A DNA stretch of 42,556 nucleotides, from positions 1 to 42,556 of IMG/VR virus record IMGVR_UViG_3300001847_000341; one strand, given 5' to 3'. A program made the position numbers and the translations under genes. The DNA comes from a virus. Positions 3,173 to 35,638 of the stretch are shown here, piece after piece. The notes beneath the pieces are model-generated. The model saw only the letters and a list, made by a program, of their open reading frames with translations. It was not told the DNA's origin and ran no database searches. Positions within the stretch are counted from its first letter, which is position 1; each line of letters begins with the position of its first letter.

Positions 3173-3193
3173 GCCCTGATTTTTTCCAATTGG

Positions 3194-3199
3194 CATACT
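3194..3199 (+). promoter_or_regulatory. Extended -10 box before scaffold
   Basis: CATACT preceded by TGG, 41 nt before ATG 3240. Confidence 0.45.
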
Positions 3200-3239
3200 A
3201 CCTCGCAATCAACAACGGGCGTGATGCTCGTGCAATTCA

Positions 3240-5104: not shown

Positions 5105-5114
5105 ATTGCTTAGG

Positions 5115-5120
5115 CATACT
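5115..5120 (+). promoter_or_regulatory. -10 box after capsid terminator
   Basis: CATACT preceded by AGG, 69 nt before ATG 5189. Confidence 0.4.
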
Positions 5121-5188
5121 AGATCGTACAGCAGTTGCCCTCCTCACTCTGCGCGGGGACTGCAAACAAAAACCCAAGGAGTCCATCA

Positions 5189-7461: not shown

Positions 7462-7495
7462 ATTTTTGAGTTTCAAGTAGTATTCCGCTTCTTGG

Positions 7496-7501
7496 CAAAC
7501 T
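7496..7501 (+). promoter_or_regulatory. Late-type extended -10 box
   Basis: CAAACT preceded by TGG, 24 nt before ATG 7525. Confidence 0.4.
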
Positions 7502-7524
7502 ACCCTTGAATAACCGTGGTTGCA

Positions 7525-8802
7525 ATGATTCTCAGTTCTGCCGATATTCTTCGCATCCTCGGTCGAAGCGAGATCATTCGCTTGTCAGCTAAGCTTAGTA
7601 TCGTTGATTCCCGCCCCAATCCTAGTGGAGCCGAGGGGCTTTTTATCTTCATCGAGCGATTTCCAGTACTTGGAGAGTTTGAAGCCACCTGGAGGCTGTG
7701 GCTTGAAAGTGATGGTAGCGAACCGGATGATCTGGTAATTGCTGAGATAAAAAAACTGCTTCCCAATGTTACTGTTAGCGATGGTTTGCTTGTTGAAGTT
7801 ACAACGACTGACTTTCGCTCAGAAAACACTCAGGTAGTACCAAGGACTATCGACCAGTCCTCGTCGCCGTTATCGACCGTCAGGGTGGAGTTGGACCTGA
7901 CAGCCTACGAGAATCGCTTCCAGGCCCTTGTGGAATCCGTTCAGGATCAGATGCTTTTGGTTGGTCCCGGGCAGCCAGGGAAGGATGGCCAGCAGGGTCC
8001 TGCGGGCAAGGATGGCAGGAACGGGATAGATCTGGTAGCAACGGAGGTTGATCTCGAAGACCTGCGGAATGTTGAACAGGGGATCCCCTTTGAGAAAGGG
8101 CAGGTCCTGACGTGGGATGGCGAAAAATGGACAAATCTTTTTATTCCAAAAACACTTATCTTCGGCGGGGGTAGTACCGTTAATTCTTCTTCCAGCAGTG
8201 AATTTGTCAGTTCTACTGTTCAATGGAAGTACCATGGAGCAAATATATCTCAAGATCCTGCCTCTGGTGATTTTAATGCAAACTCTTCGGTTGCTGCCTC
8301 TGTAACGAACTTTTATGTCAGTAATCATACAACGCAAGGAACCGATATTTCGGTTCTTCTAAGAGACCTGTTGAGCCAGGGATATGATCGACTGTATGCC
8401 GCTCGCAGCAATGATTTATCACAAGCACAACTTTACGCCATCGCAAGCCACAGTGAAACACCGCAAGGATTCCTGATACAGGTTGCTCATGTTGAGACCG
8501 CTGGAACAGAGCCTAATTTTATCGTATCTCAAAATTATCAATTTTTTATCAGCAAATCTGCGGCCGCTGGTGGAGGTGGTATTCCAGAGGCGCCAATCGA
8601 TAACTCTTACTATATTCGGCGGAACGGAACATGGGCAAATTCCTCTTCGATGATCAATGAAGTACTACTAGGAGATTTGGCGGACATCGACACAACATCA
8701 AAAGTGGATGGAAGTGTTTTGTGCTACAATTCAGGCAGTGGCAAATGGGTAGGCGGTAATATCACTACGGTACTTACGCTAACGGATGGAGGAAACTTTT
8801 GA
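7525..8802 (+). CDS. Tail-fibre-like protein with short collagen-like stretch
   Basis: This encodes 425 residues. ATG 7525 is preferred over GTG 7516 because it lies 24 nt after a TGG-CAAACT box. Residues 1-90 form a compact alpha/beta domain, probably the particle-binding part. Around residues 148-168 there is a Gly-X-Y run (GQPGKDGQQGPAGKDG), a collagen-like trimerising stretch. Ser/Thr/Asn-rich fibre sequence follows. The end (DLADIDTTSKVDGSVLCYNS, then GKWVGGN and DGGNF) shares a strand pattern with the proteins at 1860 and 8836. The role is host adsorption as a trimeric fibre, inferred from these modules and the two fibre genes downstream. Confidence 0.75.
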   Translation: MILSSADILRILGRSEIIRLSAKLSIVDSRPNPSGAEGLFIFIERFPVLGEFEATWRLWLESDGSEPDDLVIAEIKKLLPNVTVSDGLLVEVTTTDFRSENTQVVPRTIDQSSSPLSTVRVELDLTAYENRFQALVESVQDQMLLVGPGQPGKDGQQGPAGKDGRNGIDLVATEVDLEDLRNVEQGIPFEKGQVLTWDGEKWTNLFIPKTLIFGGGSTVNSSSSSEFVSSTVQWKYHGANISQDPASGDFNANSSVAASVTNFYVSNHTTQGTDISVLLRDLLSQGYDRLYAARSNDLSQAQLYAIASHSETPQGFLIQVAHVETAGTEPNFIVSQNYQFFISKSAAAGGGGIPEAPIDNSYYIRRNGTWANSSSMINEVLLGDLADIDTTSKVDGSVLCYNSGSGKWVGGNITTVLTLTDGGNF

Positions 8803-16306: not shown

Positions 16307-16334
16307 GTGGAGGGCCTTGGTAGGTGGCCTAGCC

Positions 16335-16343
16335 AGTCTACCA
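16335..16343 (-). promoter_or_regulatory. Extended -10 promoter for the initiator-helicase operon
   Basis: Reading leftward, TGG-TAGACT lies 29 bases before the initiator ATG. It abuts the TTGAC array, so a protein bound there could repress it. Confidence 0.5.
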
Positions 16344-16346
16344 TGC

Positions 16347-16418
16347 TTTGACGTGTTGACCGTTTGACGTGTTGACCGTTTGACGGTTTGACCGTTTGAC
16401 GGTTTGACCGTTTGACGG
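16347..16418 (+). repeat. Iteron-like array of nine TTGAC units at exact 8-bp spacing
   Basis: TTGAC begins at 16348, 16356, 16364, 16372, 16380, 16388, 16396, 16404 and 16412, followed alternately by G and C. The larger period is 16 bp: two copies of TTTGACGTGTTGACCG, then two of TTTGACGGTTTGACCG, then a half copy. Inverted GTCAA/CGTCA copies follow at 16418-16453, then TATATATAT at 16460-16468. This is the only simple direct repeat array seen in the window. It lies between the divergent initiator operon and the rightward genes, as an origin or operator would. Confidence 0.75.
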
Positions 16419-16507
16419 TCAAGGCGTCACGCCAATGACGTGTGAGGCGTCAAAACACCTATATATATCAAGACTGTTTCTAAGACTGGTACTAGAAGGG
16501 GGATCAG

Positions 16508-17069: not shown

Positions 17070-17078
17070 TGCTATACT
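17070..17078 (+). promoter_or_regulatory. Extended -10 promoter before annealase
   Basis: TGC-TATACT lies immediately after the membrane gene's stop and 27 nt before the annealase ATG. No -35 is seen. Confidence 0.5.
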
Positions 17079-17104
17079 GGTGGAGTACCTCTACGAGGAA
17101 TCGT

Positions 17105-17884: not shown

Positions 17885-17909
17885 GGAGGGCTTGACACCC
17901 TCCTTTTTT
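17885..17909 (+). terminator. Terminator whose loop holds a -35
   Basis: GGAGGG (17885-17890) pairs with CCCTCC (17898-17903) and six T follow. The loop is CTTGACA, so it includes TTGACA (17892-17897). Confidence 0.8.
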
Positions 17910-17920
17910 CTTGGTACACT
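17892..17920 (+). promoter_or_regulatory. Strong sigma-70 promoter for sigma factor gene
   Basis: TTGACA at 17892-17897, a spacer of exactly 17, and TACACT at 17915-17920 preceded by TGG. It is the best -35/-10 pair in the window and is usable by host polymerase early in infection. Confidence 0.75.
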
Positions 17921-17952: not shown

Positions 17953-18744
17953 ATGACCAACCCCATCACCATCTGGCTCGATAGCGCTGCTAGCTACCGT
18001 GTCCTGACCCACGAGGAGACCCTTGAGCTTGGCCGGGCCATCCAGGCTGCAACACCTGGCACTGCCAAGCATACCCGCTTGGTCAACAAACTGTGCAACC
18101 ACAATCTGCGCCTGGTTGTCCGCTACACCAAGCAATACATGAGCGGTGGCAAGCGTAACCTGCATTGGGGCAGTGAGGAGACTTTGGACCTCCTGCAAGA
18201 GGGGGCCATCGGCCTGCGCCGTGCCGCTGTCAAGTTCGACCCCACCAAGGGCTATACCTTTGCTACCTACAGCTGTGCCTGGGTTCGGCAGGCCCTGGGT
18301 AAGTACCACGTCGATAAACTTAGCCTAATCCGCGTGCCTGAGTCGTCGGCCCGGGAGATTTTCTACTACCAGAACCACGGCCGCCCCCGCAACGAACGTA
18401 GCGCCTCCTGGGTGGCTGAGGCATCGATTGCAGCTCAAGCCGCCTACGGTCTCGTGTCGTATGACTGCAAATTGACGATTGACTCTCAGGAGTCGACCAT
18501 ATCAGTCCTTTCAGACGAGAATCGGGTCGGTCATGTTACATGCAAGCCAGATTATTCACTGCGAGAAGCTCTAATGGTCAAACTTGGCATTGAGCAGAAG
18601 ATCCGCGACGTGATTATCTCATACTGCAAACGCGGCAACCTTGACACTGCTATGATGAAAAACAAACTCGTGGTCTCGAAGGCTAACCGGGCCAAGGTCC
18701 GCGAGGCCATTGCCCTGGTGAAGGGGCACTGTGCTGCCCAGTAA
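17953..18744 (+). CDS. Phage sigma-70 family factor, group 1/2-like
   Basis: The 263 residues start at ATG 17953, with AGGAGG six bases upstream. Region 1.2-like VLTHEETLELGRAIQAA is followed by region 2: CNHNLRLVVRYTKQYM (about 48-63), LDLLQEGAIGLRRA (78-91), and FDPTKGYTFATYSCAWVRQALGK (95-117), the core-binding and -10 recognition helices. Region 3-like LSLIRVPESSAREI follows. The last 60 residues are diverged; only VSKANRAKVREAIALVKGH faintly recalls region 4, so -35 contact may be lost. It should redirect host RNA polymerase to phage promoters. A strong host-type promoter drives it. A second, unrelated sigma lies at 25855. Confidence 0.88.
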   Translation: MTNPITIWLDSAASYRVLTHEETLELGRAIQAATPGTAKHTRLVNKLCNHNLRLVVRYTKQYMSGGKRNLHWGSEETLDLLQEGAIGLRRAAVKFDPTKGYTFATYSCAWVRQALGKYHVDKLSLIRVPESSAREIFYYQNHGRPRNERSASWVAEASIAAQAAYGLVSYDCKLTIDSQESTISVLSDENRVGHVTCKPDYSLREALMVKLGIEQKIRDVIISYCKRGNLDTAMMKNKLVVSKANRAKVREAIALVKGHCAAQ

Positions 18745-18810
18745 ACTGTAAAGGGAGGAACGGGGCACCTCTGTAAAAACGCCCTTCTCAACCTATACAG
18801 GAAACGAACA

Positions 18811-19167
18811 ATGGCTTCAATCTCCCTCGCTGGAACCGTTACCGGCAAGCAGGGTGAGCCCGCAGTAACCGTCAAGACCTTTGACAGCGGCGACTCTGTG
18901 GCTACATTCTCGGTCGCCGACCGCGAATACGTGTATTCGCGCAAAGGTGAAGAGGCCAAAGGCCAGTTTTATCGCGTCGAGATCCGTGGGAAGGCGGCCC
19001 AGATCGCTGCCGACCGCCTGCAACGTGGAGACAAGGTGGCCATCCATGGTCAGCTCGTGCAACGCGACTACAATGGCAAGACCTACCTCGATGTCAAGGG
19101 AGCCCGGATTACCTACCTGGAGGCCCGTCGAGACCAATTCGATTTGTACGAGGAAGCTCCTTTCTGA
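18811..19167 (+). CDS. ssb: Single-stranded DNA-binding protein
   Basis: This protein has 118 residues and an OB-fold layout: SISLAGTVTG, VATFSVADREYV, QFYRVEIRGKAAQIAADRLQRGDKVAIHGQLVQRDYNGKTYLDVK. That matches bacterial SSB strand order, including the basic and aromatic DNA-contact strands. It ends FDLYEEAPF, a short acidic tail with a terminal Phe like the SSB protein-interaction tip. It protects single strands during replication and recombination and probably recruits partners by the tail. AGGAAA precedes ATG by eight bases. A terminator follows directly. Confidence 0.88.
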   Translation: MASISLAGTVTGKQGEPAVTVKTFDSGDSVATFSVADREYVYSRKGEEAKGQFYRVEIRGKAAQIAADRLQRGDKVAIHGQLVQRDYNGKTYLDVKGARITYLEARRDQFDLYEEAPF

Positions 19168-19184
19168 TTGTTAAGAGATATACA

Positions 19185-19206
19185 GGGGCTCCGGCCCCCT
19201 TTTTTT
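19185..19206 (+). terminator. Terminator after ssb
   Basis: GGGGC-TCCG-GCCCC stem-loop followed by a run of T, then at once an extended -10 box. Confidence 0.8.
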
Positions 19207-19207
19207 G

Positions 19208-19216
19208 TGGTATATT
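19208..19216 (+). promoter_or_regulatory. Extended -10 promoter
   Basis: TGG-TATATT sits two bases after the T-run and 24 nt before the ATG at 19240. Confidence 0.5.
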
Positions 19217-19239
19217 GACATGGTGTTCGAGAGGAACCA

Positions 19240-19689
19240 ATGAATCTTGAAGAGTCTGAGATGGCCCCGGGAACGGTCGGCCTGCTGTTTGACGAAACCC
19301 CGCTGATGACCCACGCGCACATCCGCGCATTCGTGTGGCCGATCCTGCTCTACAGGGGCGCTGTGAGGCCCCACGAGGTGGTTGCAGCCGTCTCCGGGGT
19401 ATGCTCTACCGAGGACATGAAGACAGGCGCCTGGGACGCTCTCCTGGGCGACTACGGCGATCGTACTCGAGTCGAGTTGCTGGTAGACGAGGTGCTGGGC
19501 GAGATGATCGCCGAGGGCCTTTGCCGCTACAATGAGGAGCAAGACATCTGGGTGCTAACCCTGGGTAATCAACGCCAGAATGTCGCCCGCGTGATCAACG
19601 TGGTAACCGCTCTCGATGCGATGATGCCTCAACACTTATTGGCTGACCTTGCCAAGGATGAACGCAATCGCCTTCCGATTCCTTTTTAG
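19240..19689 (+). CDS. Hypothetical acidic protein
   Basis: This 149-residue protein is mostly helical and acidic, with LLVDEVLGEMIAEGLCRYNE resembling a winged-helix wing region. It ends in a Pro-rich piece (RLPIPF). GAGAGGA precedes ATG. No catalytic motif is visible. It heads a run of closely packed genes (19240-21394) that ends with recombination enzymes. The family was not recognised. Confidence 0.65.
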   Translation: MNLEESEMAPGTVGLLFDETPLMTHAHIRAFVWPILLYRGAVRPHEVVAAVSGVCSTEDMKTGAWDALLGDYGDRTRVELLVDEVLGEMIAEGLCRYNEEQDIWVLTLGNQRQNVARVINVVTALDAMMPQHLLADLAKDERNRLPIPF

Positions 19690-19713
19690 ATCAATTATCG
19701 CTGAGGAATAATT

Positions 19714-19944
19714 ATGCCCGTCCGTCAAAACAAGAAGAAGCGCCGCGACCGCTACGAACGAGAACTTGAAAAACAGGTCCAGGCCGCTCTCGATCCGCCC
19801 TCTGAAGGCCAATTCTGCGTCCTCGACAAGAAGACCAAACAGAAGCACCGGGGCCTCAACTGGAAGCAGGCCCAAGCTCTCTGGAACTCACTGGAGAGCG
19901 CCATTATCCTTCAAGACGAGCACGTTCGCAATGGGACGCTTTAG
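19714..19944 (+). CDS. Small basic coiled-coil protein
   Basis: This has 76 residues and begins with a Lys/Arg block (RQNKKKRRDRYERELEKQ) that should bind nucleic acid. A Trp-containing helix follows (GLNWKQAQALWNSLESA). GAGGAA lies before ATG. It overlaps the next gene by 14 bases. Function is unknown. Confidence 0.6.
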   Translation: MPVRQNKKKRRDRYERELEKQVQAALDPPSEGQFCVLDKKTKQKHRGLNWKQAQALWNSLESAIILQDEHVRNGTL

Positions 19945-20197
19945 CCGTCAAACTGGTGAATTTACCGCCAAGCCTTCAACCCTGAAGGCCGTCGAGCGGA
20001 TGTACCAAGCTCCTACTCCACTCCCTGTGTTCCGTAAGGGCGCTCCCGTAGAGGTTTTTCTCGGATCCGGTTGGGCAAAGGGTGCAATCGAATACAGTGA
20101 TAAGATTCGTTGCGTCGTTTTCCTCAAGATCGGCCAGCGGCGAGTAATCTGCTATGATGCTCGGAATGTTCGTCCCTGCACCCCTTCTGCCAAATGA
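19931..20197 (+). CDS. Hypothetical small beta-rich protein
   Basis: The 88 residues start at ATG 19931. The upstream open frame shadows the neighbour. The core VFRKGAPVEVFLGSGWAKGA then IRCVVFLKIGQRRVICYDARNVRP reads as an SH3-like barrel with a turn after each strand. Such small barrels often bind nucleic acids or proteins. It overlaps the next gene by ATGA. Confidence 0.6.
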   Translation: MGRFSRQTGEFTAKPSTLKAVERMYQAPTPLPVFRKGAPVEVFLGSGWAKGAIEYSDKIRCVVFLKIGQRRVICYDARNVRPCTPSAK

Positions 20198-20748
20198 CTG
20201 ACATGATCGACCCCCTCCACTACCGTGGAGGCCGCCGCTTCGAGCCCATTGAGGTGATCGAAGACTGGGCCCTCAACTACCGACTGGGCAATGCCCTGAA
20301 GTACATCTCCCGCAATGGCCGTAAGCCTGGCGAGGATCCCTGTGAGGGCCTCAAAAAGGCCATGTGGTATTTGCAGCGCGAGATCGAAACCCTCGAAGCC
20401 AAGAATGTCCCCTACGCCCTTACCTACGAGGATGTGCTTGAAGACTATGCGGCCTGCGCCGCCGAGGGCAAGATCTACAATCGAGAGCAGTCCTTAGACG
20501 GCCAGTTCGATCCGTACGCAGAAGAGTTGGAAGCTGGCTGGGACGAAAGTGCTGGTCCCTTTGAGGCCTACGTTCCCAGGCCCGTGGCGCCATCTTGCGA
20601 GGTTGACCTCAGTGAGCTTCACAAAGACCTCGACCAATTTGAGGACGATGAGATCATCGCCACATTTGAGCGCCGTGGCCTCCTCTTCGGCGTTGACCGC
20701 AACGGTCGCTCCTATACCCTTGGTATCTACGAAGGACCCACCACATGA
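20194..20748 (+). CDS. DUF3310-containing protein (SaV-like)
   Basis: This is 184 residues. Residues about 5-68 match DUF3310: DPLHYRGGRRFEPIEVIEDW, then YRLGNALKYISRNGRK, then GLKKAMWYLQREIE. The module is widespread in phages and often labelled nucleotide-kinase-like, without firm biochemical proof. The remaining 115 residues are acidic and less conserved. The gene is coupled at both ends by ATGA overlaps, placing it with the nucleotide and recombination genes. Confidence 0.78.
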   Translation: MTDMIDPLHYRGGRRFEPIEVIEDWALNYRLGNALKYISRNGRKPGEDPCEGLKKAMWYLQREIETLEAKNVPYALTYEDVLEDYAACAAEGKIYNREQSLDGQFDPYAEELEAGWDESAGPFEAYVPRPVAPSCEVDLSELHKDLDQFEDDEIIATFERRGLLFGVDRNGRSYTLGIYEGPTT

Positions 20749-21290
20749 AAACCGTCGCAATGTTCGGCTCGGCCCGTCCTGGCCCCGAAACGGAAGTCTA
20801 CTACGGTACAGTGCAGGCAGCCCGCCTGCTAGCAGAGAGTGGATGGACAATTGCCACCGGAGGAGGCCCTGGCCTCATGGAGGCAGCCAACGTCGGAGCC
20901 AAGCTTGGCTGCGAAGGAAGCACCTGTTCTCTCGGCTACTCAATTTACCTGCCATTTGAGTCCTCAACAAACCCAGCAGTGCAGCGCGATAGTCATCATG
21001 ACAATTTCTTTACCAGACTCAAGCAGTTTACTGATGACTGCGATGCTTTCATTGCTCTTCCTGGTGGCTATGGGACTTTGCTGGAAATCCTGACTGTAAT
21101 CCAGCTGCTACAGGTCAGGCATATGAACAACAAGCCGCTCATTCTTGTTGGTCAGATGTGGGACAATATCATGACGTACTCTTCTTCGATGATGTGGTTG
21201 GCCGGTTACATTGGCGATTCGGAGCAGTGCTTCCATCGGAAAGCTACGTCACCTATCCAGGCAGCTGAACTGCTGCTTGAGCTAACGTGA
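20745..21290 (+). CDS. LOG/TIGR00730-family Rossmann protein
   Basis: The 181-residue protein has the two signature motifs of the LOG (so-called lysine decarboxylase) family, GGGPGLMEAAN (39-49) and PGGYGTLLE (106-114), and an N-terminal FGSARPGP loop. Family members hydrolyse nucleoside 5'-monophosphates to base and ribose 5-phosphate (cytokinin activation in plants), or bind nucleotides as SLOG sensors. Length matches bacterial LOG proteins. In a phage it could feed purine salvage or remove a nucleotide signal used in host defence; both are inference. It overlaps both neighbours (ATGA and GTGA). Confidence 0.82.
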   Translation: MKTVAMFGSARPGPETEVYYGTVQAARLLAESGWTIATGGGPGLMEAANVGAKLGCEGSTCSLGYSIYLPFESSTNPAVQRDSHHDNFFTRLKQFTDDCDAFIALPGGYGTLLEILTVIQLLQVRHMNNKPLILVGQMWDNIMTYSSSMMWLAGYIGDSEQCFHRKATSPIQAAELLLELT

Positions 21291-21394
21291 CCACCGAATC
21301 CGCTATTGGACTTCTTCTGGGCGCCGTTATTGTTAGCGGTGCCTTTTCTTTGTGCGTCTCCATCCTGGTCAATCGCTTGAATACCAGTGATTGA
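21287..21394 (+). CDS. Membrane microprotein, 35 residues
   Basis: From GTG overlapping the LOG stop, the frame reads a short polar start, one hydrophobic helix (IGLLLGAVIVSGAFSLCVSI) and a polar end. It ends eight bases inside the RusA gene. It fits exactly between two real genes with coupling at both sides. That makes translation likely, though at this length it is not certain. Its function is unknown. Confidence 0.5.
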   Translation: MTTESAIGLLLGAVIVSGAFSLCVSILVNRLNTSD

Positions 21395-21758
21395 ACTGAC
21401 AGTTAACATGGTGCTGTTCTCGAAGGCTCGACCCCGGGTCACCAGTCGAGGCACCTTCATGCCAAAAGAGTACCAGGCCAAGCGGCGTGAGATGCTCCGT
21501 CAGATCCAGGAACAGTACCAAGGGCCTCCCCTAGAGGGGCCCATTCGGCTAGAACTGGATGTGTATGGCGAAGGCCGAGCCGATGCTGACAACATCATCG
21601 GAGCCTTCATGGACACGGCTAACAAAGTACTCTGGGTTGACGACCGCGTATCGATCATCCCCGAACTGCAGGTCCGCTGGCGCAAGGCGAACAGGGGCGC
21701 CTCCAAGTGGATCGTCCGCATCTACCCGCTAGACTGCGAACAGGAACCGCTGTTCTAA
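21387..21758 (+). CDS. rusA: RusA-family Holliday junction resolvase
   Basis: This is a 123-residue protein from GTG. KARPRVTSRGTFMP near the N-terminus and GRADADNIIGAFMDTANKVL plus VDDRVS carry the RusA acidic residues (Asp, Asp and Asp) that hold Mg2+ and cut four-way junctions. Size equals the family norm of about 120. It would resolve recombination intermediates and branched concatemers before packaging. It sits between the LOG operon and the exonuclease, with one base to the latter's start. Confidence 0.87.
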   Translation: MIELTVNMVLFSKARPRVTSRGTFMPKEYQAKRREMLRQIQEQYQGPPLEGPIRLELDVYGEGRADADNIIGAFMDTANKVLWVDDRVSIIPELQVRWRKANRGASKWIVRIYPLDCEQEPLF

Positions 21759-21759
21759 C

Positions 21760-22599
21760 GTGGCAGAGACTCGCTTTAACGAGGCAGATTTCGACTATCG
21801 CAGAGAGGAGGGCGTTAACCAGTCCTCCCTCAAGAAGATCCTTGAGAGCCCGGCCCACTACCAGGCAGCCATCAAGACCAAGTTGATTCCCACTCCTGCT
21901 ATGGAGATGGGCACGGCCCTGCACTGCCTCGTCCTGGACGGCGCAGAGGCATTTAAGGCCCACTACGTCAAGAAGCCTGACGGCCTTAGCTTGGCCACCA
22001 AGGAAGGCAAGGAGTGGAAGGCTTCCCTGGGCCGTAAGAAGCCACTGGCGGAGGGCGGCAAGGACGACCCCTGGGGCTCTGTCATCGGCATGGGTGACTC
22101 CCTGCGCGAGCTACTGTGGTTCAACGGATCCGACCCCGAGTACATCAAGTACAATGAGGTGTCGATCTATTGGGACTGGGAGGGCGTCCGCTGCAAGGCC
22201 CGCCTCGACCGTGTGTTGGTGGATGAGGGTATCGTTCTCGATCTGAAGACGACTGACTCGGTTGAGCCTGAGCTATTCACCAAGAAGGTGGTGAGCCTGG
22301 GGTACGATTTTCAGGCGGCGTATTATGCTAAGGCTGCTGAGGTAGCTTTCGGCAAGCCTTTTAAGTTCATGTTCGCTGCCGTCGAGCGGAAGGCCCCCTA
22401 CAGCGTCGATCTCTTTGAGGTGAGCGACGAGATGATGGCCGAAGCCAACGCCAAGTGCGTCGCCGCTCTGCGTCTCTATAAGACTTGCAACGATCTCGAC
22501 CGCTGGCCCGGTCGCCAGCCTAGGATCCGGTCACTGGAATACCCGAGCTGGTATACCCCGTTCGGCCAGCCCACACAAGAAGAGGATGACCTGTTTTGA
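21760..22599 (+). CDS. RecE-like exonuclease, DUF3799/PDDEXK
   Basis: The protein is 279 residues from GTG. SSLKKILESPAHY and MEMGTALHCLVLDG (48-61, His55) are typical of the N-terminal motif. The nuclease core shows KARLDRVL (Asp150), VLDLKTTDS (Asp161, Lys163) and YDFQAAYYAKAA, the RecB/exonuclease VIII pattern. It should resect double-strand ends to give tails for the annealase at 17105. It is coupled to the next gene by a TTGA overlap. Confidence 0.83.
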   Translation: MAETRFNEADFDYRREEGVNQSSLKKILESPAHYQAAIKTKLIPTPAMEMGTALHCLVLDGAEAFKAHYVKKPDGLSLATKEGKEWKASLGRKKPLAEGGKDDPWGSVIGMGDSLRELLWFNGSDPEYIKYNEVSIYWDWEGVRCKARLDRVLVDEGIVLDLKTTDSVEPELFTKKVVSLGYDFQAAYYAKAAEVAFGKPFKFMFAAVERKAPYSVDLFEVSDEMMAEANAKCVAALRLYKTCNDLDRWPGRQPRIRSLEYPSWYTPFGQPTQEEDDLF

Positions 22600-22781
22600 A
22601 GATCACCATTGAGCTCAACGACGGTTGGTGGGATTGGGACGTGGAGGACGATCCCAACGCCCGTGGTACTTACTGCGGGACTACCTCCCGCAGCGTCCGA
22701 TCGGCCTGTGAAGACATGTTACAAGCTATACAGGACAAGGCCCGCCACCCCTATAATCCCAAGGTTCGCACGGAGTACTGA
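22596..22781 (+). CDS. Hypothetical small acidic protein
   Basis: This encodes 61 residues from a TTG overlapping the exonuclease stop, and it ends on the first base of thyX. The pattern KITIELNDGWWDWDVEDDP gives two strands with a Trp cluster. A helical, basic second half follows. Function is unknown. Exact fit between two genes supports it. Confidence 0.55.
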   Translation: MKITIELNDGWWDWDVEDDPNARGTYCGTTSRSVRSACEDMLQAIQDKARHPYNPKVRTEY

Positions 22782-23467
22782 TGACAATCGCTAACCGCGA
22801 CACGACCAAGCTTGAGTTCCCCCGTGTGGAGCTTGAGTTCGTAACTCCAGACGCCGAATTTTTCATGGGCCATGTGGCCCGGGTCAGCAACCCCAAGAAC
22901 CAGGACAACCCGAAGGTCTCCGGCCTCCTGAAGTACTGCATCAAGCACGGCCACTGGAGCGTCTTCGAGCATGCCCACATGACCCTCCAGGTCACCACGA
23001 CGCTGGACATCGCCACTCAGATATTGCGGCACCGCAGCTTCTGCTTCCAGCAGTTGTCCAGGCGCTACGCAGGAGAGGCCGAGGCGCCCCTGGTGATCCA
23101 TTTGCCACACCTGCGGGCACCACACCCCAAGAACCGCCAGAAGAGCATAGACGAGCTTCCAGGGGAGACTCAACTCTGGTTCCAGGCCAAGCTGGACGAA
23201 CACTTCCGCCAGGCCGAAGACCTATACACGGCCATGCTTCAGCACGGCATCGCCAAGGAGTGTGCAAGGGCCATCCTGCCCCAGGCCGCCGAGACGACCC
23301 TCTACGTGACTGGCAACTGCCGCTCCTGGATCCACTACCTATGCCTCCGGTCTGCCAACGGCACCCAGGAAGAGCATCAGGACGTGGCACTGAAGGCGAT
23401 CGGTATCTTCAGAGAGTACTTCCCGTCAGTAGCAGAAGCCCTGGACGAGCTGAACTGGACTTTCTAG
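22781..23467 (+). CDS. thyX: FAD-dependent thymidylate synthase ThyX
   Basis: This 228-residue protein methylates dUMP to dTMP using methylene-tetrahydrofolate, FAD and NADPH. The signature RHRX7S is present as RHRSFCFQQLSRRY (83-96). ECARAILPQAAETTLYVTG and SWIHYLCLRSANGTQEEHQD match the dUMP and flavin contacts at the C-terminal side. HGHWSVFEHAHMTLQ is the usual N-terminal motif. Length is normal for the family. It supplies dTTP along with the reductase at 31881 and the deaminase at 35113. Confidence 0.95.
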   Translation: MTIANRDTTKLEFPRVELEFVTPDAEFFMGHVARVSNPKNQDNPKVSGLLKYCIKHGHWSVFEHAHMTLQVTTTLDIATQILRHRSFCFQQLSRRYAGEAEAPLVIHLPHLRAPHPKNRQKSIDELPGETQLWFQAKLDEHFRQAEDLYTAMLQHGIAKECARAILPQAAETTLYVTGNCRSWIHYLCLRSANGTQEEHQDVALKAIGIFREYFPSVAEALDELNWTF

Positions 23468-23474
23468 GGAGCGG

Positions 23475-23480
23475 TATCCT
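23475..23480 (+). promoter_or_regulatory. -10-like box before terminase
   Basis: TATCCT preceded by CGG, 26 nt before the small terminase ATG. It is the same GG-TATCCT sequence as at 5956. Confidence 0.4.
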
Positions 23481-23505
23481 ACAGCGCGTGGAGTGATTCC
23501 AACTG

Positions 23506-24132
23506 ATGTCGTCGGACCCGAGTTCCTGGAAAGAGGCTCAGCCCCCATACAACCCGGGGCCCATCTACAACTTCCGCAGAGGGTACCGGGTTAGCGACGC
23601 AGGACGTCACGAGAACGACAAGCAATTCAGGGCCTTCCAGACCTACATGAATTTGGGGTCTGGGAGGTCTTATGCTGCAGTGGCGGAGATCTGCGAGATG
23701 GGGGAGAATACCATCATGGAATGGGCAAGTCGCTGGGAATGGCAGCGTCGTGCCGCGAAGTGGGACCAGAAGCAGCTCACCAGGGCCTTCGAGAGCGCCA
23801 ACAAGATGGAGCGGACCCGTCACCGCCAAAGCATTGAAAAGTTCCGCAAGAGCCAACAGGAGCAGGCTGAGAAGTTCGTGGCGGTTAGCAATGACCTAAT
23901 GGCGGTTATCCAGAGGCGAATAGAGCGGGCAGATGCCGAGGGCGAAGAGATCCCGATGGCACTCGTGTCTGGCCTGATGCGTGCAGCTGCAAACATCTCC
24001 GAGCAGGGCCGCCAGGCTTGGGCAACCTCTCTTGGCGTCAATGAGCTGATGGCCGTGGTGGACCAGGAGCTCGAACAGGTGAACGTCGAGGACGTTACCG
24101 ATGACGTGTACGACATCCCGCTGGACGAGTGA
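23506..24132 (+). CDS. Terminase small subunit
   Basis: This 208-residue protein is positioned just before the large terminase, with four bases between. Residues about 50-88 (GRSYAAVAEICEMGENTIME, then WEWQRRAAKWDQ) form a helix-turn-helix that would recognise the packaging site. A long charged coiled coil (about 98-130) would form the oligomer ring. The C-terminus is acidic (VEDVTDDVYD). The combination and location are diagnostic even though sequence conservation is low in this family. Confidence 0.8.
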   Translation: MSSDPSSWKEAQPPYNPGPIYNFRRGYRVSDAGRHENDKQFRAFQTYMNLGSGRSYAAVAEICEMGENTIMEWASRWEWQRRAAKWDQKQLTRAFESANKMERTRHRQSIEKFRKSQQEQAEKFVAVSNDLMAVIQRRIERADAEGEEIPMALVSGLMRAAANISEQGRQAWATSLGVNELMAVVDQELEQVNVEDVTDDVYDIPLDE

Positions 24133-24136
24133 CCCA

Positions 24137-25654
24137 ATGGCTCAGAAACTAGGCAAGGACTATCTGGCCAAGGCTGCGTCTGGCCAGGACCTGATTCGCG
24201 CCGTCAAGGCGAAGAAGGCTGAGCGCACTTCGAAGCAGATCGTGCTTTGGAGGTTCATCAAGCAGGTCTATCCCAACTACAAGATGTTCAAGTTCCATGC
24301 AACAGTCATCGAGCAGCTTCAGCGCGTCATCGACGGAGACTGCAATCGACTCATACTTCAGGTGCCGCCGAGGCACGGAAAGAGCCTCCTGGCTTCTCAA
24401 CTTCTGCCTGCTGCCTATCTGCTTGCTCACCCCGACCGTCATGTTGGCATCAGTTCATATAGCGCAGAACTGGCAGAAGGCTTCTCAAGAAAGGCCCGCG
24501 ACTTCTACCGTGAGGGCGGCGGACTTCTGAATGCTAGCTCTCAGGCAGTTAATGCCTGGGGCACCGAGGGTGGTGGTGGCCTTTGGGCTGCTGGTGTTGG
24601 CGGTGCTATCACTGGTCGATCTGGCCACTTGCTGATCATCGACGACCCCGTCAAGAACCGGGAGGACGCAGAGAGCGGTAGGATGATGGACAAGTTGAAC
24701 GACTGGTACACCTCTACCCTCTACACCCGTCTTGAGCCCCATGTCGGGGCCATTGTTGTGATTCAGACCCGGTGGTCAGAGAATGACATGATCGGTCAAC
24801 TGCTCGAGAACGAGATGAATGTTTCCGAGAAGGGACGCGAGAATTGGACTATTGTTGACCTGCCTGCTCTCTATGAAGACGAAGGTGACCGCCCCCTCCT
24901 GCCACCGCATTGTGAAATTATCCCTGACTGGCGCACCGAAGTGGGTACAGCGCTTTGTCCCCAGCGTTACGATGTGGACGACCTCGAAAGGATCAGAGAA
25001 GCCGTCGGCTCGCGCGATTTCGCCTCTCTCTACCAGCAGAGACCGGCCCCTGAGGGCGGCAACATGTTTAGTCCTGATTGGTGGCAGTATTACGGTCACG
25101 ACAGCGTTATTCCGGACTTCCAGCGTGTCATGCTTGCGGTTGACGCTACCTTCACCGCTACCAGCAAGAGTGACTATGTCGTTGGGATTGTGGTTGGGCA
25201 GGCGGGCAATCGGTTCTACGTTCTCGACCTCGTTAGGGAAAAGCTCGACGTGGTCGGTACGATGGCGATGATCAACCGTATGTATCAAAGGCACGCTCTA
25301 AGCGGCACCGTCATCGAACTTGCGGCGTCTGGTCATGCCGTTTACCAGATGATGCATCAAAAGGTTCCAGGCCTAATCGGCTTCAAACCGGACAAATCCA
25401 AGGAGGCCCGAGCCAGTGGTATTGTCCCGATCGTCGAGGCTGGCAACGTGTTCCTGCCGGCAAGCGCACACTGGCTCGATGCGTTCCTGAACGAGTTCTC
25501 CCTGTTTCCCGCGTCGAAGAACGACGACATGGTCGATGGTCTCACCATGGCCATCAACTACATGACCCAGCGGTCGGCTCCGCAACTAACGACGGTTACC
25601 TGGGGCCGAGGCGACAGGGCCCTACCTGATGTCCCTCAGTATCGCGCCTGGTAG
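24137..25654 (+). CDS. terL: Terminase large subunit
   Basis: The 505 residues start at ATG 24137. The ATPase domain has Walker A QVPPRHGKS (75-83), Walker B LLIIDD (165-170) and the coupling motif VVIQTRWSEND. The RNase H-like nuclease domain shows MLAVDATFTATSKSDY, VIELAASGHA and KNDDMVDGLTMAINYM, the three acidic positions expected. It powers DNA packaging and cuts concatemers. TerS and TerL form a pair, but the portal lies about 10 kb downstream, which is unusual. The stop overlaps an extended -10-like box. Confidence 0.95.
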   Translation: MAQKLGKDYLAKAASGQDLIRAVKAKKAERTSKQIVLWRFIKQVYPNYKMFKFHATVIEQLQRVIDGDCNRLILQVPPRHGKSLLASQLLPAAYLLAHPDRHVGISSYSAELAEGFSRKARDFYREGGGLLNASSQAVNAWGTEGGGGLWAAGVGGAITGRSGHLLIIDDPVKNREDAESGRMMDKLNDWYTSTLYTRLEPHVGAIVVIQTRWSENDMIGQLLENEMNVSEKGRENWTIVDLPALYEDEGDRPLLPPHCEIIPDWRTEVGTALCPQRYDVDDLERIREAVGSRDFASLYQQRPAPEGGNMFSPDWWQYYGHDSVIPDFQRVMLAVDATFTATSKSDYVVGIVVGQAGNRFYVLDLVREKLDVVGTMAMINRMYQRHALSGTVIELAASGHAVYQMMHQKVPGLIGFKPDKSKEARASGIVPIVEAGNVFLPASAHWLDAFLNEFSLFPASKNDDMVDGLTMAINYMTQRSAPQLTTVTWGRGDRALPDVPQYRAW

Positions 25655-25854
25655 ACTACTATCGTTCCCGCTCTGCTTCGGCATCGGGCTGAGTTTGCCG
25701 CTCATGCGCCGGGGACCCACTTGGCAAGCGCGAAGGCACGGCTCTGGAGGCGTCCGTAACGTCTCCCCGAAACACCCCCTAAGCCTCTCGACGATGCTCA
25801 AACCTGGGGGTCACTATTCGACCTGGTAGACTGATTTCAGTTACTAAGCCAGGC
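25655..25854 (+). other. Gap between terminase and second sigma
   Basis: No gene is seen in these 200 bases. Two identical CCTGGTAGACT boxes (25647-25657 and 25822-25832) bracket the gap. Inside lies a hairpin with stem GGAGGCGT (25746-25753) and ACGTCTCC (25759-25766). Confidence 0.5.
25824..25832 (+). promoter_or_regulatory. Extended -10 promoter for second sigma
   Basis: TGG-TAGACT ends 23 nt before ATG 25855. No -35 is visible. Confidence 0.5.
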
Positions 25855-26589
25855 ATGGCACGCAAGCCGCAGAAATTCCAGCTCAGCAAAGAGCAACAGC
25901 AGCTTGCGGCTAGCAATCTGAACCTAGCTCGTCGCGAGGCCTGGCGCATTCAGCGGTCGACAGGTATCGATTACCAGACCCTGGAGTCTGTAGCCTTCGA
26001 GGGGCTCTGCAAGGCAGCCTTCCGATACGACGCGGACAAGCCTCACCCGACCACTGGCAAGAGCATGAAGTTCTCCAGTCTTGCCGTGCCGACAATCCGT
26101 GGCGAGTTGCTACATTGGGTTCGCGATAGAACCTATGCTATGCGCCTGAGCCACAAGATGCGCGAGCGCTGGTTGAAGGGCCGTAAGATGCTGTACCGTG
26201 GCGCCACCGACATCCAGGTAGCCCGGGAGCTGGGTATCGATCTGGAGGACTGGCAGGAGGTCCGCAAGGTCTGCTCGGGCCCACCGCTTGAGCTCAAGGA
26301 CCAAGCCACCCCTACGGAGCCCCTGGAGCCCTCAGAGGTGGACTTCGCCACCATGTATATCGAGCAGGCCAGTCGCTCTATTGAGCAACTCGACCAAGAG
26401 CACCAGAGCAGTCTCTCGCAGATCGAGGTATACCTCAACGGCACCGGCACCCGTGTCCCACGAGCAGCTGTCGATGCTCTACTTGCGGCTGCTGGGTGTG
26501 CGGCTACCGACTGGAGCCAGATGGATGTTAATTTACTTGACGGTTGGGAGGACTTGGGTGACGATCGATTCCAGGGCAGCCTGTTCTAG
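25855..26589 (+). CDS. Second sigma-70 family factor, SigF/group 3-like
   Basis: This is a 244-residue protein. Residues about 21-92 match region 2 of alternative sigma factors: NLNLARREAWRIQRSTGI, LESVAFEGLCKAAFRYD, and MKFSSLAVPTIRGELLHWVRDR, the SigF/SigB style KFSxxAxPxIRGE. Region 3-like residues 100-139 (HKMRERWLKGRK, then ATDIQVARELGIDLEDWQEV) follow. The last 90 residues are acidic and lack a clear region 4. It is distinct from the factor at 17953, so this phage encodes two. A timed switch between promoter sets is the natural inference. It precedes primase. Confidence 0.85.
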   Translation: MARKPQKFQLSKEQQQLAASNLNLARREAWRIQRSTGIDYQTLESVAFEGLCKAAFRYDADKPHPTTGKSMKFSSLAVPTIRGELLHWVRDRTYAMRLSHKMRERWLKGRKMLYRGATDIQVARELGIDLEDWQEVRKVCSGPPLELKDQATPTEPLEPSEVDFATMYIEQASRSIEQLDQEHQSSLSQIEVYLNGTGTRVPRAAVDALLAAAGCAATDWSQMDVNLLDGWEDLGDDRFQGSLF

Positions 26590-26590
26590 G

Positions 26591-26599
26591 TGGTAGACT
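26591..26599 (+). promoter_or_regulatory. Extended -10 box seven bases before primase ATG
   Basis: TGG-TAGACT at 26591-26599, with ATG at 26606. If used, transcription would begin at or next to the ATG and give a leaderless message. AGGTGG overlapping it could instead be a ribosome site on read-through RNA. Confidence 0.4.
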
Positions 26600-26605
26600 G
26601 TCCCC

Positions 26606-31828: not shown

Positions 31829-31837
31829 TGGTAGACT
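31829..31837 (+). promoter_or_regulatory. Extended -10 promoter for reductase
   Basis: TGG-TAGACT two bases after the terminator T-run, 44 nt before ATG. The reductase is thus its own transcription unit. Confidence 0.55.
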
Positions 31838-31880
31838 GGTGGAGCCGAAAGGCATCCTAACCCTGCGTCTCTAAACCAAT

Positions 31881-34800
31881 ATGACCGAATTCCGTCCATC
31901 AGCCCCTTCCGCCGAAGCCGTATTCCTTCGCACGTACAGCCGGAGAAAGGCCGACGGTTCTCGGGAGAACTTCGAAGAGGCGATGCTCCGCACTATTGGC
32001 GACATCGCTCGCATCGGCAAGCTTGACCGGGACGAGTACGACCTGATCCTCGAGCAAGCCCTGGCTCAGCACTCCTTCCCTTCTGGCCGCGCCTTCTGGG
32101 TAGCTGGAACCGAGTGGGGTAAGAAGCCTGAGAACTTCTCCGGGTATTACAACTGCACATCAACCCACATCTCCGACATCGAAGCCTTTGGTCTGCTGGT
32201 CGACCTGGCTATGCAAGGCTCTGGTACCGGAGCGGTGCTTGAGAGCGATGTTGTAGCCGTTCTGCCTCCGGTCCTCAACAAGATTGAAGTCGTTGGCGTC
32301 TCAGGTATTGGCAAAAAACCGGGTCGAGCTAATACTACTTTTTACTGGGCCGACGCCGAGCTGTTCATCCAGGTTGGCGACTCTCGCCAAGGCTGGGTCG
32401 ATGCCTACATGAAGCTGATCGAGGTTGCAACCCTTCCTGGTAGTGGCCTCGTTAAGGTACACGTCATTCTTGACCAGGTTCGCCCTGCCGGCGAGCGTCT
32501 GAAGGGCTTTGGCGGCACCGCCAACCCGATCAAGCTTGGCGACATGTTCAAGAAGGTGGCAGCCCTGCTCTCGAAGGCCCAGGGCCGCAAGCTGACCACA
32601 GTCGAAGCCTGCCTACTCATCGACGAGGCCGCAGCCTGTATCGTGGCCGGCAACATCCGCCGCAGCGCCGGCATGCGTCAGTTCAGCAAGACCGACCAGG
32701 AGGCCGCCACTGCCAAGCTTGGCCTGTACTCACAGGACGAAGAAGGCAACTGGCGTGTTGACCCGGCCAAGGAAGCCCTGCGCATGGCCAACCACACCCG
32801 CTGCTACCATACCAAGCCTTCCTACAAGGAGGTTGAGGAGGCAGTGCGGATGCAATTCCAGAGCGGTGAGGGCGCCATCCAGTACGTCCCTGAGGCGATT
32901 GCCCGTGCGAACGCTGACGTGCTCACATGGGCCGGCCGTGATCGCTTCCTGGTTGCCTATGAGACATTCGGCCGCAAAGCTGCCAGGGATCAGCTTGAGA
33001 AAGAAGCCCGTGAGCTCGGTATTAAGCTGAGCAAGCGCGAACTGCGGCACCGTATGGATCGCTACGGCCTCAACCCCTGCCTGACTGGGGACACGCCAAT
33101 CCTGACCGTTCACCAAGGTGTCAAAACCTTTGAGGAGCTGGTCGAGAGTGGAGAGGACGTGCTCGTCTGGTGTGTCAACAAGGAGACGAACGAGGCTGCC
33201 GTGCGGATGATGCGCAGCCCCCGCGTAACTGGCTATAATCAGCCAGTGCTGGAGGTCGAGTTTGACAGTGGCCTGAAGGTGCGAGCCACGCATAACCACA
33301 ACTTCTTCACCCTGCAGCGCAACAAGGTCCAAGCCAAGGACCTCAAGGTTGGACAGTCCGTCTCAGCCTTTGCTATCCACCAGCATCGTGATGGTCACTT
33401 GCGAATCACTCGCAACAACAAGCAAGCTGATTCTGTCCGCCAGCAGTTCTGCCATCGGGTGATTGCCGATTACTATGGTATTTCTGGAGAGGTTATCCAC
33501 CACGTTGATGGGAACCCGGTGAACAACCTGCCCCAGAATCTGGAGGCGACTACCCACGTTGAGCACAATCGGGAGCACTACGGTAACCGTTGCCGCAACG
33601 GTTTCTACCACGGGTCTCCCGGCCCCGCTGCCGCCGAGCACATTGCGAATCACAAGGTTGTGGCCATCCGAGACGCGGGCACGGCGACCGTTTACAACGG
33701 AACAGTCGATGAGCATCACAACTACGTGGTGGTGGATCCGTCTTCTGTTGGCAAGAGCTACGTCTCGGGCATCCTCTCCGCCAACTGTGGCGAGATTATC
33801 GGCCGCGACTTCCACTGCAACCTGGCAGAGGTGCATCTGAACACCCTGGACCCCAACGACTTCCAGGGCCTGTACGACGCCTTCTATGCCGCTGGCCTAC
33901 AGGTGGCCTCCCTGCTGCAGCACAAGTTCGTACATGAGCGGTATCAGTACAGCCGTGAGATCGATCCGATTGTTGGCGTCAGCTTCACTGGCCTGTTCGA
34001 CTTCTATGTCCACGCCTTCGGGGCTGGCTGGCTGAAGTGGAATATGGAGGGTCGTCCCGAGTCCGATCGCTATGCCGATAAGTACACGGGCGCCGAGCAG
34101 TCGTACCTTATGCGCTTCCGTTTGGCCGCCCACGACGCTGTCGACGACTACTGCACAAAGCATGGCATCCGACTGCCCAACCGGATCACCACCGTTCAAC
34201 CCGCTGGTACCAAGAGCCTGCTCACAGGCGCTTCCAGTGGCTGGCACCCGCCCAAGGCCCAGCGCTTCATCCGTCGCATCACCCTAGGCGTTAAGGACCC
34301 CCTGGTGCCCGCTCTGATCGAGTACGGCTACAAGGTGATCCCTGCCCAGTCTGCCCGCGATGAGCATGGCAACCTGCTGGACGACATCACTGATCCTCGC
34401 GTTCAGGAAGTACTCGTCGAGATTCCCACCTCCGTGTCCTGGGCTGACCTACCTGGCTGCGATGAGTACGATCTGAGCAAGCTGCCCGTCACAGCCCAGT
34501 GGGGGATCTATATGAATGTGCAGAACTTCTACACGGACCACAACACTTCCGCAACCATCGAGTTGCGTGAAGAGGAGATCCCCGTGCTCTCCAAGCTGAT
34601 CTACGACAACATTGTGAACGATGGTGGCTACATCTCGGCCGCTCTGTTGGCCCGGTTTGATGCAAACGAGACCTTCCCTCGCTTGCCGTTTGAACCCATC
34701 TCCAGGGAGGAGTATGATCGCCAAATCCTACCCCGCAAGGTTGTCGAGATGACTGATGACCGCTCCCTGCTTGATATACTGAACAAGTATGACAGTAGCG

Positions 34801-34886
34801 AGTGGACTATTGAGAGTGTTGCAGGATGCACCAACGCGGCCTGCATCGCCAAGGCTGAAGCCGACGAACGCGAAGGCAAGGCTTGA
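31881..34886 (+). CDS. Class II (B12-dependent) ribonucleoside-triphosphate reductase with intein
   Basis: The 1001-residue precursor becomes 765 after removal of a 236-residue intein (400-635), close to monomeric class II enzymes. It reduces ribonucleotides using adenosylcobalamin. Cysteine landmarks are present: Cys92 (YYNCTSTH), the radical Cys636 in NP/CGE across the splice junction, Cys646 (DFHCNLAE), and the C-terminal pair Cys983/Cys988 (CTNAAC) that receives electrons from a thioredoxin or glutaredoxin. GSGTGAVLES and QPAGTKSLLTG are the substrate-phosphate and loop motifs. The glutaredoxin at 29450 is a likely partner. It has a dedicated promoter and terminators on both sides. Confidence 0.93.
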   Translation: MTEFRPSAPSAEAVFLRTYSRRKADGSRENFEEAMLRTIGDIARIGKLDRDEYDLILEQALAQHSFPSGRAFWVAGTEWGKKPENFSGYYNCTSTHISDIEAFGLLVDLAMQGSGTGAVLESDVVAVLPPVLNKIEVVGVSGIGKKPGRANTTFYWADAELFIQVGDSRQGWVDAYMKLIEVATLPGSGLVKVHVILDQVRPAGERLKGFGGTANPIKLGDMFKKVAALLSKAQGRKLTTVEACLLIDEAAACIVAGNIRRSAGMRQFSKTDQEAATAKLGLYSQDEEGNWRVDPAKEALRMANHTRCYHTKPSYKEVEEAVRMQFQSGEGAIQYVPEAIARANADVLTWAGRDRFLVAYETFGRKAARDQLEKEARELGIKLSKRELRHRMDRYGLNPCLTGDTPILTVHQGVKTFEELVESGEDVLVWCVNKETNEAAVRMMRSPRVTGYNQPVLEVEFDSGLKVRATHNHNFFTLQRNKVQAKDLKVGQSVSAFAIHQHRDGHLRITRNNKQADSVRQQFCHRVIADYYGISGEVIHHVDGNPVNNLPQNLEATTHVEHNREHYGNRCRNGFYHGSPGPAAAEHIANHKVVAIRDAGTATVYNGTVDEHHNYVVVDPSSVGKSYVSGILSANCGEIIGRDFHCNLAEVHLNTLDPNDFQGLYDAFYAAGLQVASLLQHKFVHERYQYSREIDPIVGVSFTGLFDFYVHAFGAGWLKWNMEGRPESDRYADKYTGAEQSYLMRFRLAAHDAVDDYCTKHGIRLPNRITTVQPAGTKSLLTGASSGWHPPKAQRFIRRITLGVKDPLVPALIEYGYKVIPAQSARDEHGNLLDDITDPRVQEVLVEIPTSVSWADLPGCDEYDLSKLPVTAQWGIYMNVQNFYTDHNTSATIELREEEIPVLSKLIYDNIVNDGGYISAALLARFDANETFPRLPFEPISREEYDRQILPRKVVEMTDDRSLLDILNKYDSSEWTIESVAGCTNAACIAKAEADEREGKA
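33078..33785 (+). mobile_element. HNH-containing intein inside the reductase
   Basis: The intein (236 residues) begins with Cys400 in CLTGDTPIL (block A). It has TxxH in RATHNHNFF (block B) and ends VDEHHNYVV then GILSAN before +1 Cys636 (blocks F/G). The penultimate residue is Ala instead of the usual His. A homing-type HNH nuclease lies inside: HHVDGNPVNNLPQNLEATTH followed by VEHNREH. Insertion is exactly at the catalytic Cys, a site known for reductase inteins. It could cut intein-free reductase alleles in co-infecting phages. Confidence 0.9.
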
Positions 34887-35607: not shown

Positions 35608-35638
35608 CGGAAACCTACTAGATGAGCGGTTGCGTGAC

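Follow-up and report, generated by a model that had tools for sequence, protein, structure and literature searches.

The Bacillus phages SPO1 and SP10 encode three sigma factors each (PMC9429907), and these act in succession, as in SPO1 (gp28, gp34 and gp2.21), where gp28 serves the middle genes and gp34 the late ones. In phage T4, gp55, a protein centred on sigma region 2, forms together with gp33 a split sigma factor for late promoters (PMC2988020, PMC7892883). Among cyanophages, the 2009 publication of P-SS2 described a group 2 (ORF113) and a group 3 (ORF003) sigma factor; its authors considered that the group 3 factor may serve a specific regulon, and only classical sigma-70 promoters were searched for in that study (PMC2784084). 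Two sigma genes each are also carried by the Synechococcus siphovirus S-CBS2 (gp61 and gp77) and by S-CRES1, S-CRES2 and S-CRES3, where they exist as annotations, with neither promoter classes nor a cascade described in the sources found. Here we analyse IMG/VR virus record IMGVR_UViG_3300001847_000341 (42,556 bases; the window), which has a corresponding pair, hereafter sigma1 and sigma2. Two classes of promoter without a -35 element were found in the window and its relatives, one mainly ahead of replication and regulatory genes and the other mainly ahead of virion genes, which suggests that the two sigma factors carry the virus over from middle to late gene expression. Phage sigma factors acting in succession would liken the window to SPO1 and SP10; those phages differ in having a Bacillus host, and no homology is claimed beyond the sigma fold.

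Two sigma factors of different groups

The gene order of the window is that of S-CBS2. Profile searches place both proteins in the sigma-70 family and, as the initial annotation proposed for the open reading frames (ORFs) present at 17953 and 25855, in different sigma groups. Sigma1 (263 residues), to which a group 1/2-like region 2 had been ascribed, matches the Pfam family Sigma70_r2 (PF04542) above its cut-off (1.3e-9), PHROG 351 (sigma factor; 8.9e-26) and, as its best likeness, the RpoD/RpoS models of NCBIfam; it is 63% identical to the syntenic gp61 (rpoD) of S-CBS2. Region 2, which binds the core enzyme and the -10 element, was matched by Pfam in 21 of 21 sigma1 homologues. Sigma2 (244 residues), described earlier as SigF/SigB-like, falls into PHROG 36098 (sigma factor; 2.6e-100) and is 81% identical to S-CBS2 gp77 (rpoS/SigF). 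Its assignment to group 3 agrees with the finding that SigF and FliA models are the best sequence matches in regions 2 and 3 (NCBIfam SigF, PRK07408, 1.6e-20; SigBFG, 1.4e-10; FliA, PDB 6pmi, 1.9e-4), all of these matches being partial and below the NCBIfam cut-offs; the match to Sigma70_r2 is sub-threshold (19.3 bits versus a cut-off of 24).

Both genes occupy conserved syntenic positions, sigma1 between the Rad52-like protein and ssb and sigma2 between terL and primase, which S-CBS2 and S-CRES1/2/3 have in common, and the window can be classed as an S-CBS2-type two-sigma cyanosiphovirus. A sigma1-type gene was present in 46 of 48 viral contigs having at least 9.3 kb upstream of sigma2 (gene starts were set by homology in the contigs and by ORF reading in the window). 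It was not detected within ~9.9 kb in contigs L099 and L100, and its lack in L017 and L014 is probably explained by these contigs beginning only 8.5 and 7.9 kb upstream. The view that it is unusual for one phage to have two sigma factors from different groups did not hold: such a pair was already published for P-SS2, S-CBS2 and the S-CRES phages carry the same pair as the window, and SPO1 and SP10 have three sigma factors each.

It had also been thought that both factors lack a convincing region 4, which normally reads the -35 element. For sigma2 this stands as far as sequence goes: Pfam detected region 4 in 0 of 29 homologues, alignment of the C-terminal block to a five-sequence region-4 profile with hhalign was negative, and in the AlphaFold2 model regions 2 and 3 are helical, with three more helices and a floppy tail making up the C-terminus. 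For sigma1 it has to be revised. No region 4 could be picked up from the sequence of the window protein, either with Pfam or with hhalign, where comparison with the five-sequence profile gave no clear outcome. The AlphaFold2 model, built on 19 window and contig homologues (predicted local distance difference test score, pLDDT, 81), shows regions 1.2 and 2 as helices of good confidence and, at residues 201–262, a C-terminal domain of four helices (pLDDT about 85–93), and it was aligned by Foldseek across full-length RpoS/SigA (E about 5e-9). Pfam recognizes region 1.2 in 3 of 21 family members and an intact region 4 in 2 of 21, namely L042 and L043, whose alignment rows show a classical helix-turn-helix. 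Given the four-helix domain, the whole-length structural match and the Pfam hits, the sigma1 C-terminus is, as modelled, probably a well-folded region 4 of degenerate sequence, not a missing one.

Two annotations in relatives deserve comment. The sigma1 homologue S-CRES3 gp8 (L049 5004-5801) carries the label DNA-directed RNA polymerase, which is an error. The sigma2 gene of S-CBS2 (gp77; L048 16833-17565) is split by a frameshift, either a sequencing error or real, and the annotated protein of ~206 residues is without the C-terminal part, which sits in another frame.

Two promoter classes without a -35 element

A de novo expectation–maximization motif search in the upstream regions of the window, S-CBS2, S-CRES3 and S-CRES1 yielded a GG.A..CT element ~30 base pairs (bp) ahead of start codons. 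The first run returned a single merged motif in which A, C and T were similarly frequent at -12, and this splits by gene class, neighbouring bases and orthologues into two classes, both found in all four phages. Class E, TGnTAnACTG, is an extended -10 element situated mainly ahead of recombination, ssb, helicase, primase and sigma2 genes. Class L, GG[AC]AnnCTA, has no T at -12, lies at an unusually fixed distance from the start codon (about 28–31 nucleotides), often in very short intergenic gaps, and is found mainly ahead of head, tail, lysis, terS, portal and ribonucleotide reductase (RNR) genes. Upstream counts compared with dinucleotide shuffles were 25 versus 1.2 for class E and 62 versus 2.9 for class L, and the E:L ratio was 18:6 for replication regions as against 5:55 for virion regions (Fisher p=3e-9), counts and a p value that overstate the significance because the patterns were tuned on the same genomes.

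Three further observations bear on the distinction between the classes. T at -12 is anti-correlated with an A directly after the element (p=1.3e-5); for a given gene, the promoter class is preserved among its orthologues in about 20 relatives; and in distant contigs, which played no part in defining the patterns, GG[ACT]AnnCTA precedes the portal gene in 18 of 18 cases, 14 of them strict class L, and most ssb genes have TATAAT/TACACT-type elements upstream. The comparisons of orthologues and of distant contigs, like the motif recovered de novo in P-SS2 and the absences in other siphoviruses given below, depend less on the tuning of the patterns. The remark that the visible promoters mostly lack a -35 element was borne out: TTGACA (at least 4/6 matches, spacing 16–18) showed no excess in class E (8%) or class L (11%) over the background (11% and 10%). 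The exception is the sigma1 promoter itself, TTGACA-N17-TACACT, of which the form TTGAC-N15-19-xAnnnT recurs in 14 of 24 orthologous sigma1 upstream regions.

Two other candidate elements, the T4-like late TATAAAT and the SigF/FliA-type GATAA/GCCGATAA, showed no clustering upstream of genes and were rejected. In P-SS2 (L051, L056, L057) there are about 20 TTGACAnnnCGCC sites, and several of them are followed 17 bp downstream by CATAnT; the S-CBS2-type phages did not show this pattern.

A proposed cascade and its alternatives

Across eight genomes, the occurrence of class L follows that of sigma2; class E goes with sigma1 of the S-CBS2 type. Class L is present in the five genomes with sigma2 and not in three Synechococcus siphoviruses without it: S-CBS4, in which no sigma gene was found, has no copy of either class, and S-CBS3 and KBS-S-2A, each with one RpoD-like sigma and no sigma2, have 0 and 1 class E and 0 and 0 class L elements. 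P-SS2, like the window, has both sigma genes, and a GGAAnnCTA-type motif was also recovered de novo there (late-type GGAAnnCT[AG] elements; variant class L, 17 versus 1.0); it differs from the window in that its sigma1 is much diverged and class E is absent (0). The presence of this diverged sigma1 ruled out P-SS2 as a sigma2-only control.

Residues Q437 and T440 of sigma70 read T at -12. In the alignment, sigma1 retains this glutamine as Q113 and sigma2 has Gly83 in its place; the -12 base is T in class E and C or A in class L. From the co-variation and this match we infer that sigma1 reads class E and sigma2 class L, and on the same grounds a three-step cascade is proposed for the S-CBS2-type cyanosiphoviruses, to which we assign a probability of about 0.6. 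Transcription of sigma1 from its TTGACA-containing promoter would come first, carried out by the host's RNA polymerase and one of its group 1/2 sigma factors. Sigma1 would then bring the polymerase to the class E promoters, including that of sigma2, and sigma2 would in turn bring it to class L. The initial annotation had envisaged a phage-run cascade with two -10 readers; two classes dividing replication from virion genes, and controls that co-vary with the sigma genes, are in its favour, and the assignment of the readers is what we infer.

Several points weigh against this proposal. The pairing of readers with promoters comes from co-occurrence in few independent lineages and from one or two residues. 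A-11, C-8 and T-7 are common to both classes and T is the -12 base ahead of some late genes, which together leave room for a single tolerant reader. Host SigA, finally, could read the extended -10 of class E.

This last point leads to the strongest alternative, in which a host factor, SigA or group 2, reads class E, the phage supplies a factor for late genes only, and sigma1 acts elsewhere, for example on host metabolism or in competition for the core enzyme. As extended -10 elements, TGnTAnACT and TGGTATAAT indeed suit a group 1 sigma factor well. Expression of S-CBS2 RpoD by itself in S. elongatus changed both growth and carbon metabolism (Sawa 2019, as cited in PMC10452541). Yet class E is not enriched in S-CBS4, S-CBS3, KBS-S-2A or P-SS2 despite closely related hosts, and it shows no -35 excess, whereas the sigma1 promoter often has TTGACA, so we regard host reading of class E as unlikely, if a serious contender. 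More doubtful still is the idea that one phage sigma factor, or both interchangeably, reads a degenerate GG[ACT]AnnCT, with E and L as the ends of a strength-tuned continuum. The merged motif of the first run and the late genes with T at -12 would fit such a continuum, but the anti-correlation with the following A, the separation of the classes by gene function and by orthologue, and the retention of L without E in P-SS2 speak against it, and we consider it improbable. That GG[AC]AnnCTA is instead a post-transcriptional signal, in RNA processing or translation, could account for its fixed distance from start codons and its frequent occurrence in very short gaps, but is very hard to reconcile with an element that is -10-like, often directly follows a terminator and, in S-CBS2, S-CRES1 and S-CRES3, forms a conserved back-to-back pair between an HNH gene (GGTAnACT, leftward) and a tail-region gene (class L, rightward).

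The matching E/L promoter code appears to be unreported in the open-access literature, although the S-CBS2 genome paper (Huang et al. 2012) may mention elements of this kind; no gene timing study for cyanosiphoviruses of the window's group was found in that literature. The proposed code makes gene timing in S-CBS2-type phages testable, and the conserved late element would allow late genes to be called in dozens of uncultured phage contigs. Promoters without a -35 element, served by sigma factors poor in region 4, would provide a second natural system, besides T4, for studying sigma function without a -35 reader.

A possible link between late transcription and the sliding clamp

Sigma2 of the window ends in QGSLF, in which Q240, L243 and F244 are invariant in 26 of 26 sequences while most of the preceding ~25 residues vary. 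The bacterial beta-clamp-binding motif is a C-terminal QLxLF of weak consensus (PMC9690074, PMC4549789), with which the sigma2 ending agrees except at position 2. In T4 gp55, the clamp-binding motif sits on a variable C-terminal linker (PMC2988020, PMC7892883). By analogy, sigma2 in the clade of the window might bind the beta sliding clamp of the host by means of its QxxLF-type tail and thereby couple late transcription to replication, a speculative step that lies outside the probability given for the cascade. The two proteins would be alike as late sigma factors without region 4 that serve -35-less promoters and carry a short C-terminal clamp motif after a variable linker. They differ in that sigma2 is recognizably of the SigF group and its tail resembles the motif for the bacterial clamp, and in that T4 has its own clamp (gp45) and gp33, whereas no phage clamp was seen and no gp33-like factor identified in the sigma2 phage. 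This likeness is one of possible working mode, drawn from described traits, and carries no claim of sequence homology.

Tentatively, then, a cyanophage lineage may have remodelled a SigF-group sigma factor into a gp55-like, replication-coupled late factor through loss of region 4, use of the -35-less GG[AC]AnnCTA and a tail that recruits the host clamp, a possibility we hold to be the less probable outcome. The fold model of sigma2 has a low predicted template modelling score (0.39), too weak to exclude a remnant of region 4, and position 2 of the motif is not Leu. QxxLF-type endings, moreover, occur in about 49 of 75 closed sigma2 homologues and are clade-specific, being absent from other sigma2 lineages, P-SS2 included, so that the clamp idea is confined to the clade; since lineages without the tail still have class L, the tail would not be needed for late recognition in general. 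If true, the remodelling would be convergent with T4, and sigma2 would be, to our knowledge, the first such late factor to use the host's own clamp.

Features of the window

Sigma genes, the tail motif and promoter elements. Class assignments are sequence predictions.
Feature	Position	Strand	Basis
sigma1, RpoD/RpoS-like sigma factor; regions 1.2, 2, degenerate region 4	17953..18744	+	profiles, AlphaFold2 model, Foldseek, S-CBS2 gp61
sigma2, SigF-group sigma factor; regions 2-3, no sequence-detected region 4	25855..26589	+	profiles, AlphaFold2 model, Pfam in 29 homologues
Codons of sigma2 C-terminal pentapeptide, beta-clamp-binding-motif-like	26572..26586	+	residue conservation
sigma1 promoter, host type: TTGACA 17892-17897, -10 inside TGGTACACT 17912-17920	17892..17920	+	sequence, orthologues
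Class E TGGTAGACTG ahead of sigma2	25824..25833	+	class E in 25/33 sigma2 upstream regions
Second TGGTAGACT, terL 3' end, upstream of sigma2	25649..25657	+	
Class E TGGTAGACTG ahead of DNA primase (26606)	26591..26600	+	
Class E TGCTATACTG ahead of Sak/Rad52-like annealing protein (17105)	17070..17079	+	
Class E TGGTAGACTG ahead of leftward helicase operon (16306-13473)	16334..16343	-	
Class E element, P1 of tandem RNR promoter	31829..31838	+	
Class L GGCATCCTA, P2 of tandem RNR promoter	31851..31859	+	
Class L GGCATACTA ahead of head scaffolding protein (3240)	3192..3200	+	
Class L GGCATACTA soon after terminator-like sequence, ahead of gene after major head protein	5113..5121	+	
Class L GGCAAACTA ahead of 7516-8802 (virion gene region)	7494..7502	+	
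Class L GGAAACCTA ahead of portal gene (35689)	35609..35617	+	GG[ACT]AnnCTA in 18/18 distant contigs
L-like GGTATCCTA ahead of terS (23506)	23473..23481	+	class L in 21/28 terS upstream regions

The E and L elements of the tandem RNR promoter are 22 bp apart, an arrangement kept in S-CBS2 and S-CRES3. An intein bearing an HNH homing-endonuclease domain (Pfam Intein_splicing, 4.7e-14) lies within the RNR ORF behind it (31881-34886; 1001 residues); in S-CBS2 the RNR gene is shorter by about 700 bases. Between the two sigma genes, a small ORF at ~19970-20197 takes the position of an SPT5-like transcription elongation factor annotated in S-CRES1/3, a possible partner factor. RusA ends in QEPLF (QEELPF in many relatives) and exonuclease VIII in DDLF/EDLF (window tails at 21758/22599), both possibly tails of the clamp or SSB type. 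An array of TTGAC-rich 8-bp units, possibly an operator or origin, lies at 16347-16426, in the intergenic region from which the helicase operon and the rightward operon diverge, and other phages have different short repeats at the same place.

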